Shown here piece by piece: positions 30,181 through 36,670 of a stretch of 64,000 nt of DNA. A model generated the notes under the pieces. That model was not told the origin of the DNA. It did no database searches and saw only the letters and a list, made by a program, of their open reading frames with translations. Each line of letters starts with the position of its first letter. Positions within the stretch are counted from its first letter, which is position 1. Source of the stretch: Verrucomicrobiota bacterium (lineage in GTDB: Bacteria > Verrucomicrobiota > Verrucomicrobiia > Opitutales > UBA953); the NCBI GenBank assembly GCA_003569205.1, contig BGOK01000003.1, positions 124,001 to 188,000 on the forward strand. Direction: 5' to 3'. The position numbers and the translations under genes are program-made.

Positions 30181-31713
30181 TTAGGAGTTGTGGTTGTAGC
30201 CCTCTTCGCCGTGGTCCGAGATGTCGAGGCCGCGGGACTCGTCTTCTTCGGTGGGGCGGAGGCCGATCGTTGCCTTAAGTGCGTAGGCGATGACGGCCGT
30301 GGCCACGAGGGATATTACCAAGGTGATGCCGATCGCCTTGAACTGCTCGGTGAGGAGCGTCTGGCCGACGATGTCCTTGAGGTTGGTGGCCAAGTTAGCG
30401 TTGGCGTCGACCGTGGCGAGGACACCGGTCATGATGGCGCCCAAGGTACCGCCGACGGCGTGCACACCGAAGGTGTCGAGCGCGTCATCGTATCCGAGCT
30501 TAGACTTCAGGTAGACCACCGCGAGGAAGGGAATCACACCCGCAAGGACGCCAATGATGACCGCCCCCGTAGTCGTGACAAACCCAGCAGCGGGGGTGAT
30601 GACGACGAGGCCAGCGACGGCGCCCGAGCAGAGGCCTAAGATGCTGGCGTGCTTACGGAGGACCCACTCGAGGGCACCCCAAGTGAAGGCAGCCACGGCC
30701 GCAGCGAGGGTCGTCGTGGTGAAGGCCTGGGCGGCAACACCATCAGCCGCGAGGGCCGAGCCCGCGTTGAAGCCGTACCAGCCGACCCAGAGCATGCCCG
30801 TACCGACCGCGCAGAGGACCATGCTGTGTGGGCTCATCGACTTCTTACCGAACCCGATGCGCGGTCCGAGGATGATGCAGAGGAGCAGCGCGGACCAACC
30901 GGAGGTCATGTGGACGACCGTACCGCCCGCGAAGTCGATAGCCTTAATCGTGGCCTTAGCATTCCAGACGCCATTCATGTCGCCGGTGATACCCCAGATG
31001 GCGTGGGCCATTGGGAAGTAGACGAGGAACATCCAAGCCGTCATGAAGGCCATCAAGGCCGAGAACTTCATGCGTTCGGCAACGGCACCCACGATGAGGG
31101 CCGGGGTGATGATCGCAAACATGAGCTGGAACATCGCGAAGACGTTCTGGGAGATCCAGTAAGCGTAGTCGGTGTTCGGTGCCGAGGTGACACCATTCAA
31201 GAAGAAGAACTCACTGCCGCCGAAGATGTGGCCGAGTAGCGTGCCGTCGAAGCTCTTACCGAAGACGAGCGAGTAGCCGACGGCCCACCAGAGGATGGTG
31301 ACCAATCCCGCGAGGCCGAAGCACTGGGCGGCGACGGAGAGGATGTTCTTCGTGCGGACCAAGCCGCCGTAGAAGAGGAAGAGGCCGGGGAGCGTCATGA
31401 AGAGCACTAAGGCGGCGCAGATCATCATGAAGCCGTTGTGGCCTGGGCCTGTGGCGCTAGCGGCCGGAGTGGTTAGACCAGCGGGGATTGTGCCCTTGGC
31501 ATCTTTCAGGACGGCCGAGGGGTCGCCGTTGCCGAGGTAGGCCTCAATGCCAGCCAAGCGCTGTTCCAAGGTTGGGGCCGGCGGGGCTGGGGGGGTCTTA
31601 GCGGCTTCAGCCGCAGGAGCGGTTGCCGTGGCGGGAGCGCTGTCCGCCGCCGTCGCCCAGAAGGGCGCCGCCGCGAGAGCGAGGATGGTGAGTGTGCGAA
31701 GCAGGGAGTTCAT
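30181..31713 (-). CDS. amtB: Ammonium transporter, copy 1 (extended N terminus)
   Basis: Amt/Rh-family ammonium channel of the inner membrane. It has a signal peptide (LRTLTILALAAAPFWATAAD), then about 70 Ala/Pro-rich residues before the first channel helix. The twin pore histidines are present in VVHMTSGWSALLL and FGVHAVGGTLGAI, and the family signature region is LFLFYGGLVRTKNILS. The total of 510 aa is longer than E. coli AmtB because of the extra periplasmic segment (LEQRLAGIEAYLGN). No glnK/glnB accompanies it. A sigma-54 promoter 15 bases from the ATG indicates nitrogen-limited expression. It is followed by a terminator, so it is transcribed alone. Confidence 0.95.
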   Translation of the reverse strand: MNSLLRTLTILALAAAPFWATAADSAPATATAPAAEAAKTPPAPPAPTLEQRLAGIEAYLGNGDPSAVLKDAKGTIPAGLTTPAASATGPGHNGFMMICAALVLFMTLPGLFLFYGGLVRTKNILSVAAQCFGLAGLVTILWWAVGYSLVFGKSFDGTLLGHIFGGSEFFFLNGVTSAPNTDYAYWISQNVFAMFQLMFAIITPALIVGAVAERMKFSALMAFMTAWMFLVYFPMAHAIWGITGDMNGVWNAKATIKAIDFAGGTVVHMTSGWSALLLCIILGPRIGFGKKSMSPHSMVLCAVGTGMLWVGWYGFNAGSALAADGVAAQAFTTTTLAAAVAAFTWGALEWVLRKHASILGLCSGAVAGLVVITPAAGFVTTTGAVIIGVLAGVIPFLAVVYLKSKLGYDDALDTFGVHAVGGTLGAIMTGVLATVDANANLATNLKDIVGQTLLTEQFKAIGITLVISLVATAVIAYALKATIGLRPTEEDESRGLDISDHGEEGYNHNS

Positions 31714-31864: not shown

Positions 31865-33145
31865 TTAATTATGCTGATAGCCTTCTTCGCCGTGGTCGGC
31901 GATGTCCAAGCCTTGGGCTTCTTCTTCCTCGGTGGGACGCAGGCCGATGGTCTTCGCAACGAATAGCGCAATCAGCCACGTCGCTCCCAAGGAAACAAGA
32001 ATACACAAGAGCATCGCTAAGAGTTGGCCTTGGAGCAGACCCTGGGGAATGAGCGCCCCGCCGGCCGTATGCGCGGTGGAGCTCATCAAGAGACCAGTGG
32101 CGAGCGCCCCCAAGGTGCCACCAATGCCGTGGACACCAAAGGTATCTAGGGCGTCATCGTAGCCGAGCTTACCTTTCAAGACAGAGCAGGCCCAATAAGA
32201 AAGGCCGCCTGCCAGCGCGCCAATCAGAACGGCGGAACTGCCTGAAACGAAGCCGGCCGCATTCGTGATCGTGGCGAGGCCAGCGATCGAGCCAGAGCAA
32301 AGCCCGAGCACCGAAGGTTTCCCGCGGTGAAGTTTTTCGACGATGGCCCAGACGAGGGTCGCGGCGGCGGCCCCGAGCGTGGTGGTCAGGAAGGCCTGCA
32401 CCGCGACGCCGTCGGCGGCGAGGGCGGAGCCTGCGTTGAAGCCATACCAGCCAGCCCAAAGTAAACCGGTACCGAGCACGCAAAGCACCATGCTGTGGGG
32501 CGTCATCGCGCGCTTCCCGAAGCCCGCCCGAGGGCCGACCATGATGCAAAGCAGGAGGGCCGACCAACCAGAGGTCATGTGCACGACAATGCCGCCCGCG
32601 AAGTCCGCGGCTTTGAAGGCGGCATTCGGATTAGCCAAGCCTGCGAAGTCTCCCGTCTGGCCCCACATGGCGTGCGCAATCGGGTAATAGACGAAGATGG
32701 TCCAGAGCAGGGAGAAGAGCATCACGGCCGAGAACTTCATACGTTCGGCGACGGCACCGATGATCAAGGCCGGAGTGATGGCCGCGAACATGGCTTGGAA
32801 GAGGGCGAAGGCGCCCGCAGAGATGCGACCTTCATAGGAACTCGCCTCCGCGCCGATACCCGCGAAACCGAGGTGCTCCGTGCCGCCGAAGATATGGCCG
32901 AGGAAGGAGCCTTGGAGGCTCTTGCCGAACACCAAGGAATAGCCGAACGCCCACCACAGCAGCAGGCCCATGGCGGTCAGGGCCACACACTGAGCGGCGA
33001 TGGAGAGGACGTTCTTGGTGCGGACAAGGCCGCCGTAGAACAGGAAGAGCCCCGGGATGCACATCAGCAAAACCAAGGCGGTGCTGATGAGGACCCAGGC
33101 ATTGTCGCCCGCAGTGACGGTGGTGGCAGCGATAGAAAAGAGCAT
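31865..33145 (-). CDS. amtB: Ammonium transporter, copy 2
   Basis: Second Amt/Rh-family ammonium channel, 426 aa, in the same orientation as copy 1 and 151 bases upstream of it. Pore histidines lie in VVHMTSGWSALLL and FGVHGIGGTLGAL; the FLFYGGLVRTKNVLS signature is present. It lacks the long periplasmic extension of copy 1. Most helices are close to copy 1, and both end in LDI-DHGEEGY-HN, so they are paralogues. It has its own sigma-54 promoter with identical spacing, hence parallel nitrogen control with separate transcripts. It is divergent from an outer-membrane-type protein gene. Confidence 0.95.
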   Translation of the reverse strand: MLFSIAATTVTAGDNAWVLISTALVLLMCIPGLFLFYGGLVRTKNVLSIAAQCVALTAMGLLLWWAFGYSLVFGKSLQGSFLGHIFGGTEHLGFAGIGAEASSYEGRISAGAFALFQAMFAAITPALIIGAVAERMKFSAVMLFSLLWTIFVYYPIAHAMWGQTGDFAGLANPNAAFKAADFAGGIVVHMTSGWSALLLCIMVGPRAGFGKRAMTPHSMVLCVLGTGLLWAGWYGFNAGSALAADGVAVQAFLTTTLGAAAATLVWAIVEKLHRGKPSVLGLCSGSIAGLATITNAAGFVSGSSAVLIGALAGGLSYWACSVLKGKLGYDDALDTFGVHGIGGTLGALATGLLMSSTAHTAGGALIPQGLLQGQLLAMLLCILVSLGATWLIALFVAKTIGLRPTEEEEAQGLDIADHGEEGYQHN

Positions 33146-35164: not shown

Positions 35165-35416
35165 TTAAGCCGCGCGGGCTGCGGTGACTGCTCGCGGTAA
35201 GGCGTCGAGGATTTCGTCGCGCCGGTGCTGGGCCGTGGCGAGGTCGTGCGTCCGTAACGAACGGCGGACGCGGGCCTTCGTGTAGGCGTCGGGGTGAATC
35301 GTGTAATGGATCCACCACGTTCCGTTGTTGTTCCAGAGGTGGTGCAACGGGTTCTCGCCCTGAACGCGGATGGAGAGGCGCGGGGCGGTGGGAGCGGTGT
35401 CGGTGGTGTTGATCAT
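35165..35416 (-). CDS. Small orphan protein resembling a tyrosine-recombinase arm-binding domain
   Basis: An 83-residue protein whose centre, NGTWWIHYTIHPDAYTKAR, followed by VRRSLRTHDLATAQHRRDEI, looks like the N-terminal arm-type DNA-binding domain of phage integrases (W-x-Y strand, then RRSLxTxDxxxAxxRRxxxL). No catalytic domain follows, and no remnant is seen on either side, so it is either a stand-alone DNA-binding protein or a fossil. A poorly structured 20-residue N terminus precedes the domain. It is divergent from a 245-base gap full of hairpins. Function is unknown, and the similarity is read by eye. Confidence 0.6.
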   Translation of the reverse strand: MINTTDTAPTAPRLSIRVQGENPLHHLWNNNGTWWIHYTIHPDAYTKARVRRSLRTHDLATAQHRRDEILDALPRAVTAARAA

Positions 35417-35454
35417 GGCGTGTGGATAAAAACGGCACGCAGCACGATCGACTC

Positions 35455-35661
35455 CGGGGGGAGGATGAATTGTGACCTTTCGGTCCTCATCTCAGGATGG
35501 TTATCCTGAAAACCACCGCGGCCTAGAAGGCTCGGTTGGTGCAAGGCAGGGGGCTGCTTTGCTCGTGATGCGTTTGTTAAGGAACTTAGCCCACCATGGA
35601 CGGCGGCGGGCTAAAGGCAAGCCCAGGCCGGCTTGGCCTGTGTCATAGGCCTTTCGGGCCT
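35455..35661. other. Hairpin-dense intergenic region
   Basis: Several inverted repeats lie in about 200 bases: GACC/GGTC at 35474-35485; TCAGGAT-GGTT-ATCCTGA at 35492-35509; CAAGGCAG-GGGG-CTGCTTTG at 35542-35561; TTAGCCC/GGGCTAA at 35586-35614; AGGCC-GGCTT-GGCCT at 35625-35639; AGGCC-TTTCG-GGCCT at 35647-35661. The last may act as a terminator of the minus-strand gene ending at 35661. No coding frame of interest crosses it. It could be a structured RNA or a palindromic repeat element linked to the small recombinase-like gene beside it; signal recognition particle and 6S hallmarks were not found. Confidence 0.45.
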
Positions 35662-36308
35662 TATTTCGGCTCGGTTAGCCCCACCGCCGCGCGCAGCTTA
35701 CGCAAGCCTGGCTCGGCGGTCGTGGCGGCTTTGGCGTAATCGTCCGCCAGTATCTGGCGGGCTTTTTCGGCCTGGGCCTCCACTTGCGCGGCCTCTTTGA
35801 CGCGGCTTTCGGCCCGGGTGAGGATTTCCCTAGCGCGACTGACCTGCTTCTGTTCATTGCTGACCTGGTTGGTCCTGGAAGTGAGCGTTGCCTGATAGCC
35901 GTCGATAGACTTGGCGTCTTCGCGGCGGCGGCGCGCGGCCTCCAGATTTTGCTTCGCTTGGTCGACCTGCTTCTCCGCCTTGGCCACATCGGCTTGCTGC
36001 CGCTGCATGTTACCCTTCTCGCGGTCGACGGTTTTCGCCGCTTCGTCTTGGGCGGTGCTGGCTTTCTTGGCCACATCGGTTGCCGTCCGGAGTTTCAGGT
36101 GGGCGGACAATAGTTGGTCGAGCTGTGCGCTTTGCAGGGCCTCGGCGATTTCCGCCTGTCGGCTGGTCGGGAGGTCGATGTGCTTCACGTCGTAGGCTAA
36201 CGCAAAGACGCCGCGTCCGGGGATGGTCATCATGGTTACCCGGGGCGGCGCCGGCGGCAAATCGGGGGTGGCGGCGGCCAAGCTGAGGGCGGCAAAGACG
36301 AGGAGCAT
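35661..36308 (-). CDS. Secreted coiled-coil protein of unknown function
   Basis: A 215-residue protein with a short signal peptide (MLLVFAALSLAAATPD) and, from about residue 55 to 190, a long Ala/Lys/Gln/Glu-rich helix with heptad periodicity (DVAKAEKQVDQAKQNLEAAR and after), predicting a coiled coil. The segment between signal and coil (VTMMTIPGRGVFALAYDVKH) is short and beta-prone. No family is recognised. It is probably periplasmic and single-gene, between the hairpin region and a divergent DUF4236 gene. Confidence 0.65.
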   Translation of the reverse strand: MLLVFAALSLAAATPDLPPAPPRVTMMTIPGRGVFALAYDVKHIDLPTSRQAEIAEALQSAQLDQLLSAHLKLRTATDVAKKASTAQDEAAKTVDREKGNMQRQQADVAKAEKQVDQAKQNLEAARRRREDAKSIDGYQATLTSRTNQVSNEQKQVSRAREILTRAESRVKEAAQVEAQAEKARQILADDYAKAATTAEPGLRKLRAAVGLTEPK

Positions 36309-36407: not shown

Positions 36408-36670
36408 ATGGGTTTCTTTCGTTTCGTAAAGTCCTTTCGTTGGGCCGGTTTCTAAAATTGAACCTTTCCAAGACGGGCGTGTCAGCTTCGGTCGGGCGCC
36501 CTGGGGCGACGCTTAACGTGCGGAAGGACCGCGTCGATGGGACGGTGGGCGTGCCGGGCACGGGACTCTCGTACCGGGAACGCTTGGCGAATCGCGGGTG
36601 TGCCTCGCTCGTCGTCGGCGGACTGGGCCTGCTGGCGGGCGCGGGCGCGTGGTGGCTCGCCGCGGCGTGA
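36408..36670 (+). CDS. DUF4236-family protein (one missing base near 36455)
   Basis: The central KLNLSKTGVSASVGRPGATL and GTVGVPGTGLSY are the hallmark of DUF4236, small proteins of unknown function whose usual start is MGFRFRKS...NLSKSG. Here MGFFRFVKSFRWAGF begins at ATG 36408 and meets a TAA at once; restoring one base near 36455 joins it to LKLNLSKTG in the other frame, giving 87 residues with the family's normal start. After the domain there is one hydrophobic segment (LVVGGLGLLAGAGAWWLAAA), so the protein is membrane-attached at its C terminus. Without the correction, the frame would start at a TTG at 36440. Confidence 0.72.

Follow-up and report, generated by a model that had tools for sequence, protein, structure and literature searches.

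The run of hairpins between two minus-strand genes in this stretch of DNA is one conserved cis-regulatory RNA, the minus-strand leader of the adjacent 83-aa orphan gene, and its sequence identifies this leader as homologous to the SAM-I/IV riboswitch, though divergent. We consider it very likely that the leader acts as a metabolite sensor of that descent on the mRNA of the orphan gene, SAM-OFF at the start codon and, in family f14, at a terminator. The window, i.e. the whole stretch of 64,000 nt that was analysed, is taken from contig BGOK01000003.1 (GCA_003569205.1, positions 124,001-188,000 of the forward strand), and all features are numbered relative to it (Table 1). About 244 bases separate the stop of a 215-aa gene (35661-36308, minus) from the 83-aa gene. 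A first-pass annotation had described a run of hairpins here, and the run proved real: the minus strand has a folding energy of -98.7 kcal/mol over 35417-35660 (z = -4.78) and its core, 35436-35574, gives z = -6.39, with 0/200 shuffles as good in either case, while folding of the plus strand of the gene gap gives z = -2.80. Two of the repeats had been called perfect. This holds for TCAGGAT-GGTT-ATCCTGA (35492-35509), complementary at 7/7 positions, but CAAGGCAG-GGGG-CTGCTTTG (35542-35561) contains one non-Watson-Crick pair, a G.T that reads as an A.C mismatch in the transcript (minus strand). The hairpins are mixed in kind: those within 35452-35562 (P2 to P6) are part of the conserved RNA, and those at 35620-35660 are upstream of it. 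In the close relatives L010-L014 the pairing of the TTAGCCC.../...GGGCTAA hairpin (35586-35614) is disrupted. Beyond the left edge first drawn for it, the feature continues to the start codon at 35414-35416.

Table 1. Parts of the leader and its gene, in window coordinates.
Feature	Position	Strand	Basis or remark
Riboswitch aptamer P1-P5	35472-35570	minus	R1 match 35470-35572; RF01725 match 35460-35576
P1 5' strand CAUC	35567-35570	minus	pairs with 35488-35491 in 32/32; one pair varies C-G, U-G, U-A
P1 3' strand GAUG	35488-35491	minus	covariation alignment
P2 hairpin (CAAGGCAG/CTGCTTTG)	35541-35562	minus	both-sided changes in 3/5 outer pairs
P3 hairpin, invariant CCAACC...GGUGG core	35512-35540	minus	alignment of copies
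P4 hairpin (TCAGGAT/ATCCTGA)	35492-35509	minus	both-sided changes in 6/8 pairs
P5 hairpin outside P1 (GACC GAAA GGUC)	35474-35485	minus	both-sided changes in 2/4 pairs, 100% paired
Hairpin directly before switching strand (CUCC CCCC GGAG)	35452-35463	minus	relatives: different complementary arms
Switching (anti-P1) strand GAUCGUGCUGCGUG	35436-35449	minus	35438-35447 pairs with 35563-35572, or 35443-35449 with start-codon region
Start-codon region CACGC C AUG AUC	35411-35422	minus	hidden when P1 forms
Orphan gene, 83 aa, DUF6538-like (integrase N-terminal type)	35165-35416	minus	
Putative promoter TTGCCT (35615-35620), 16 nt, CATGGT (35593-35598)	35593-35620	minus	by eye

Searching 57 relatives turned up the orphan gene in 35 (36 matches altogether), and the aptamer, recognised by sequence motif, accompanies 32 of these matches, all in the window's genus. 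Among the other four, L042 has the aptamer, L043 starts inside it, L044 carries by eye a diverged version, and no aptamer was found in L040. The five helices are present in all 32 genus copies, whose alignment has 94.8% of cells paired. Both-sided changes occur in 13 of 34 pairs (72 cells), where shuffles gave 8.3 pairs and 21.5 cells and slid pairings no more than 5 and 20; since the sequences are related by descent, these counts are of non-independent events. Most of the compensatory change sits in P4 and P5. The number of further pair types in the 32-copy alignment (18) did not exceed that of the shuffles (22.4). RNAalifold on A1 favours the anti-P1 helix over P1, a preference that is expected because P1 and anti-P1 are exclusive folds of near-equal energy. 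We built a covariance model, R1, from the 32 genus aptamers and ran it on 372 genomes of the order. At E ≤ 0.01 it matched 78 of them, 75 with a single copy; 48 belong to the genus, 6 to a sister genus, 23 to family f14 and 1 to f2. The covariance search and folding of homologous regions proposed in the first-pass annotation thus yielded compensatory changes and a structure recurring across the order, bearing out its suggestion of a structured RNA. GC-rich DNA between two same-strand genes is where ordinary terminators of the genes on either side, or hairpins arising by chance, might be looked for, but the z-score of the core, the covariation and the conservation into other families leave this explanation hardly credible.

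The same annotation had alternatively proposed a palindromic repeat family of REP type, processed by the neighbouring protein as a RAYT-like enzyme, and had suggested counting similar sequences in the genome. The hairpins do adjoin a recombinase-like protein, but where such a family would have many dispersed palindromic copies, the window's own genome has one copy, the next R1 match in it lying at E 6.25; the protein matches DUF6538 only, with no match of the Y1 transposase type, and the helices form one folded aptamer. We therefore rejected the repeat family and give the idea almost no credence.

At Rfam cut-offs, tRNAs were the sole matches in the window. A permissive search of the leader returned SAM-I/IV (RF01725) as the sole family, with 33.9 bits and an E value of 0.00053 over 266 bases (0.0012 when 601 bases were searched), a score that falls below the gathering cut-off of 41.1 bits. 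The same family matches 15 of 20 loci (the window's L009 and 19 others) at 30.6-59.7 bits, one of them above the cut-off (L102, 59.7), and five of 12 further loci, ten of which are named loci without a firm R1 match. At L187 an RF01725 match of 47.5 bits, above 41.1, lies directly upstream of the orphan gene. Four matches in the order exceed the cut-off, and two of these precede homocysteine S-methyltransferase genes (PF02574, E 1.7e-55 and 1.4e-71).

The SAM-pocket core CAU-A-GA / CCAACC / GGUGG / AUG is kept in 71 of 73 copies. The crystallised SAM-I/IV aptamer begins GGAUCACGAG, as given in the portion of PMC5393176 consulted, and at the equivalent position the window RNA has AUCACGAG, the same J1/2. 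G8 and A25 of that aptamer take direct part in SAM recognition, according to a passage of PMC8525861; aligned by eye, their equivalents in the window are G35564 and A35537. Excerpts from the literature describe SAM-I/IV as having an undivided P2 and a P4 and as lacking PK-1 (PMC6890682), with a P2 that has no internal loop (PMC2864571) and a P5 that lies outside P1 (PMC5393176), and describe the three classes of the SAM-I clan as having a common pocket (PMC6890682). The window RNA resembles SAM-I/IV (RF01725; crystal 4L81/4OQU) in its P1-P2-P3-P4-P5 order, its core sequences and its identical J1/2 AUCACGAG, in having P4 inside and P5 outside P1, and in the pocket core AUC-A-GAG / CAACC / GGUG / GAU, compared by eye with the 4L81 sequence. 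It is unlike SAM-I/IV in scoring below the Rfam cut-off, in its putative target, an orphan DUF6538-like gene, and perhaps in its P2, which has one A.C mismatch in the window and a 3x3 loop in many genus copies. In all 22 non-f1 leaders the P3 loop pairs with the tail over 5-6 nt (GGGAGC:GCUCCC, AGGAGU:ACUCCU, GGGAAG:CUUCCC), as PK-2 should, and PK-2 is absent in the window's clade (L009-L014), where the best loop-tail pairing is 2-3 nt (shuffle p 0.73-1.00). Because the window RNA falls short in score and in PK-2, two tests of strict membership, we class it as a divergent SAM-I/IV variant. Hence the RNA that had been thought possibly undescribed is structured, as proposed, but is of the SAM-I/IV type and not an unrelated new RNA.

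The SAM-I family (RF00162) was matched in 0 of 57 relatives and was not listed for the window leader, where only the best match of the clan was kept. SAM-I RNAs differ from the RNA here by a kink-turn in P2 and by having no PK-2/P5 unit. They are like it in the common ligand-binding core and internal P4 (PMC6890682, in part). SAM-IV (RF00634) has the core and an external P5 in common with our RNA, but PK-1 and no P4 (same source), whereas the RNA here has P4 and, by eye, no PK-1. SAM is the presumed ligand. It is improbable, in our estimate, that the RNA retains the fold of the SAM-I clan while this lineage senses something else, e.g. S-adenosylhomocysteine: the loss of PK-2, the RF01725 scores under the cut-off in the window's clade and the unusual target gene would fit such a change, but the core is unchanged in those 71 of 73 copies, including the SAM-contacting positions of the crystallised aptamer, and sister RNAs precede the homocysteine S-methyltransferase genes.

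Two competing pairings were computed for the leader. The P1 5' strand CGCAUCACGA can pair with the downstream UCGUGNUGCG in place of P1, and this ten-pair anti-P1 helix has 93.4% of cells paired in the 32 genus leaders versus at most 57.8% when slid. Within the genus it shows no both-sided changes (0/10 pairs), so its support comes from comparing families, where a change of the J1/2 base is matched by one in its platform partner: C-G in f1, G-C in f14 (GCAUCAGG:CCUGAUGC) and A-U in L095 (GCGCAUCAAG:CUUGAUGCGC). When the anti-P1 pairing was required to be a perfect match, only 39 of 69 leaders reached p ≤ 0.05 in this strict test. In f14-type leaders the anti-P1 partner sits within a hairpin followed by a T-run, and a hairpin of at least -13.9 kcal/mol in strength precedes a T-run in 20 of the 22 non-f1 leaders; this would be an antiterminator/terminator layout, with intrinsic termination governed by the same P1 competition. 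In f1 the freed switching strand pairs instead with the start codon (UUGAUCGUG:CAUGAUCAA), and in the window GAUCGUG:CAUGAUC plus GCGUG:CACGC join it to the start-codon region.

We examined accessibility of the start in 46 leaders, of 48 offered (L040 and L086 were left out). With P1 forced to form, accessibility of the AUG fell by at least 0.2 in 42 of 46 and that of the preceding 9 nt likewise in 42 of 46; one or the other was hidden in 46/46, and neither rose by 0.2 in any. The medians moved from 0.62 to 0.00 for the AUG and from 0.79 to 0.33 for the preceding 9 nt, and in 41 of 46 leaders the switching strand was the pairing partner of the AUG. Controls in which the pre-AUG and coding stretches were shuffled (n = 276) showed hiding of the AUG in 19%, pairing of the AUG in 10% and a fall in either accessibility measure in 36%. 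In the window leader the unpaired probability of the AUG drops from 0.64 to 0.00, and the two states are only 2.8 kcal/mol apart (-62.0 versus -59.2). For the duplex that the switching strand forms with the start region, only 24 of 46 leaders had an energy better than that of shuffles (p ≤ 0.05).

We propose that at low SAM the P1 5' strand CGCAUCACGA would pair with the switching strand at 35438-35447, leaving the AUG open (ON). With SAM bound, P1 (CAUC:GAUG) would be held closed and the switching strand released, which in the window's clade would then pair with the start codon through GAUCGUG:CAUGAUC and GCGUG:CACGC and block translation (OFF). In f14, the second family, this competition would act through an intrinsic terminator. 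By the usual logic of riboswitches SAM stabilises P1, and from this we infer that SAM is the OFF signal, so that SAM-OFF switching would be the behaviour expected in cells. Counted against a SAM switch is the target, which is not a methionine gene.

The partnership of RNA and gene was evident from both directions. The gene lies downstream on the same strand, 31-118 nt away, in 36 of 40 further loci chosen for the RNA (a subset of the remaining R1 matches); of the others, L078, L099 and L107 run off the contig, and in L102 the RNA is followed by another ORF, of 100 aa, that has no Pfam match. Conversely, R1 (E ≤ 0.01) lies upstream in 69 of 80 named loci found with the protein (the best 80 of 318), and five more of these 80 have RF01725 at E 6e-5 to 0.18; the two sets of loci overlap. 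RNA and gene travelling together in this way (36/40 and 69/80) is also what might be seen if the orphan protein itself bound the leader and regulated its own synthesis without a metabolite, but it is the SAM pocket that is conserved, and the family also has members ahead of unrelated genes (L201, L203, L102); we judge autoregulation very unlikely. Several loci showed individual features. The SAM-I/IV riboswitch of L102/L199 (G275; 59.7 bits), before the 100-aa ORF, is accompanied by a T-run hairpin holding CCTGATG, complementary to the P1 strand. In L200 (G238) an above-cut-off SAM-I/IV riboswitch (52.2 bits) stands before very short ORFs. L040 (f5; minus) gave no SAM-I/IV match; it has a strong GC hairpin and long T-run just before 493, directly ahead of the start codon of the orphan homologue and attenuator-like. 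One f14 genome has a TPP riboswitch (L042:48-161, minus; 55.1 bits) close to its orphan gene.

The adjacent protein had been called recombinase-like, which is correct insofar as it matches DUF6538, a domain that is also N-terminal in an integrase of a relative, but it has no catalytic domain. DUF6538 was detected in 71 of 72 homologues, none with a catalytic family; the window protein scores 26.2 bits against a cut-off of 27 and gave no other Pfam match, including none to the Phage_integrase catalytic domain. In this relative (L246) DUF6538 occurs N-terminally in a protein of 350 aa that also has a Phage_integrase domain. The orphan protein thus resembles tyrosine recombinases with an N-terminal DUF6538 in its DUF6538 match and predicted three strands followed by a helix (AlphaFold model, modest pLDDT of 71.7), and is unlike them in having no catalytic domain and being a single-domain gene of 66-109 aa. 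Named relatives of the gene are mostly from Opitutae MAGs, so that the window's genome is of Opitutales type and, judging by isolate names, probably freshwater. In all ten pairs tried dN was below dS (e.g. 0.10 versus 0.45 for L009 and L014), and the protein is therefore under constraint. A sequence search of solved structures gave only two weak matches (E 0.24 and 1); with the modest model, Foldseek found nothing at E ≤ 0.001 and VIA-align had a best Z of 5.1, an AP2 domain (Z 3.8) appearing among unrelated rows. With the L042 homologue as query there was no match in phage records and only two weak ones in plasmids (E 0.8-0.9), and PHROGs gave nothing for the window protein. The domain suggests that the orphan protein may bind DNA. 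More tentatively, it could be a domesticated integrase arm-binding domain that binds DNA and regulates methionine/SAM metabolism throughout Opitutales, in which case the SAM riboswitch would top a cascade by controlling a regulator and not an enzyme, and the window's clade would have simplified SAM-I/IV by losing PK-2; we hold this whole picture to be possible but doubtful.

The riboswitch itself is ordinary biology, and the interesting parts are its unexpected single-gene partner and the loss of PK-2. In the open-licence PMC literature we found no paper on DUF6538, on Opitut together with SAM riboswitch, or on riboswitch together with Verrucomicrobiota and S-adenosylmethionine, and no title on the pairing of a SAM riboswitch with the orphan gene; the part of PMC3766115 available to us does not mention this pairing. 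A clade of SAM-type riboswitches missed by the Rfam cut-off is now identified, with a complete and testable predicted switch built on a single strand that can pair with the aptamer or else with the AUG itself. The sensed metabolite, putatively SAM, is tied to a conserved free-standing recombinase N-terminal domain that is apparently made at low SAM, and this link offers a concrete route to the function of the orphan protein.

Upstream of the promoter-like sequence, YTATGACAC (35640-35648, minus) is kept in relatives while its surroundings diverge. We rejected it as a regulon site, finding 8 genomic sites versus 6 for the reversed pattern, i.e. no enrichment; its combination with CTTGC has a single occurrence. 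Elsewhere in the window, an ORF at 36440-36667 (plus) carries DUF4236 (PF14020, E 8e-14), and the adjacent genes at 30181-31713 and 31865-33145 (minus) resemble, by eye from their translations, ammonium transporters.
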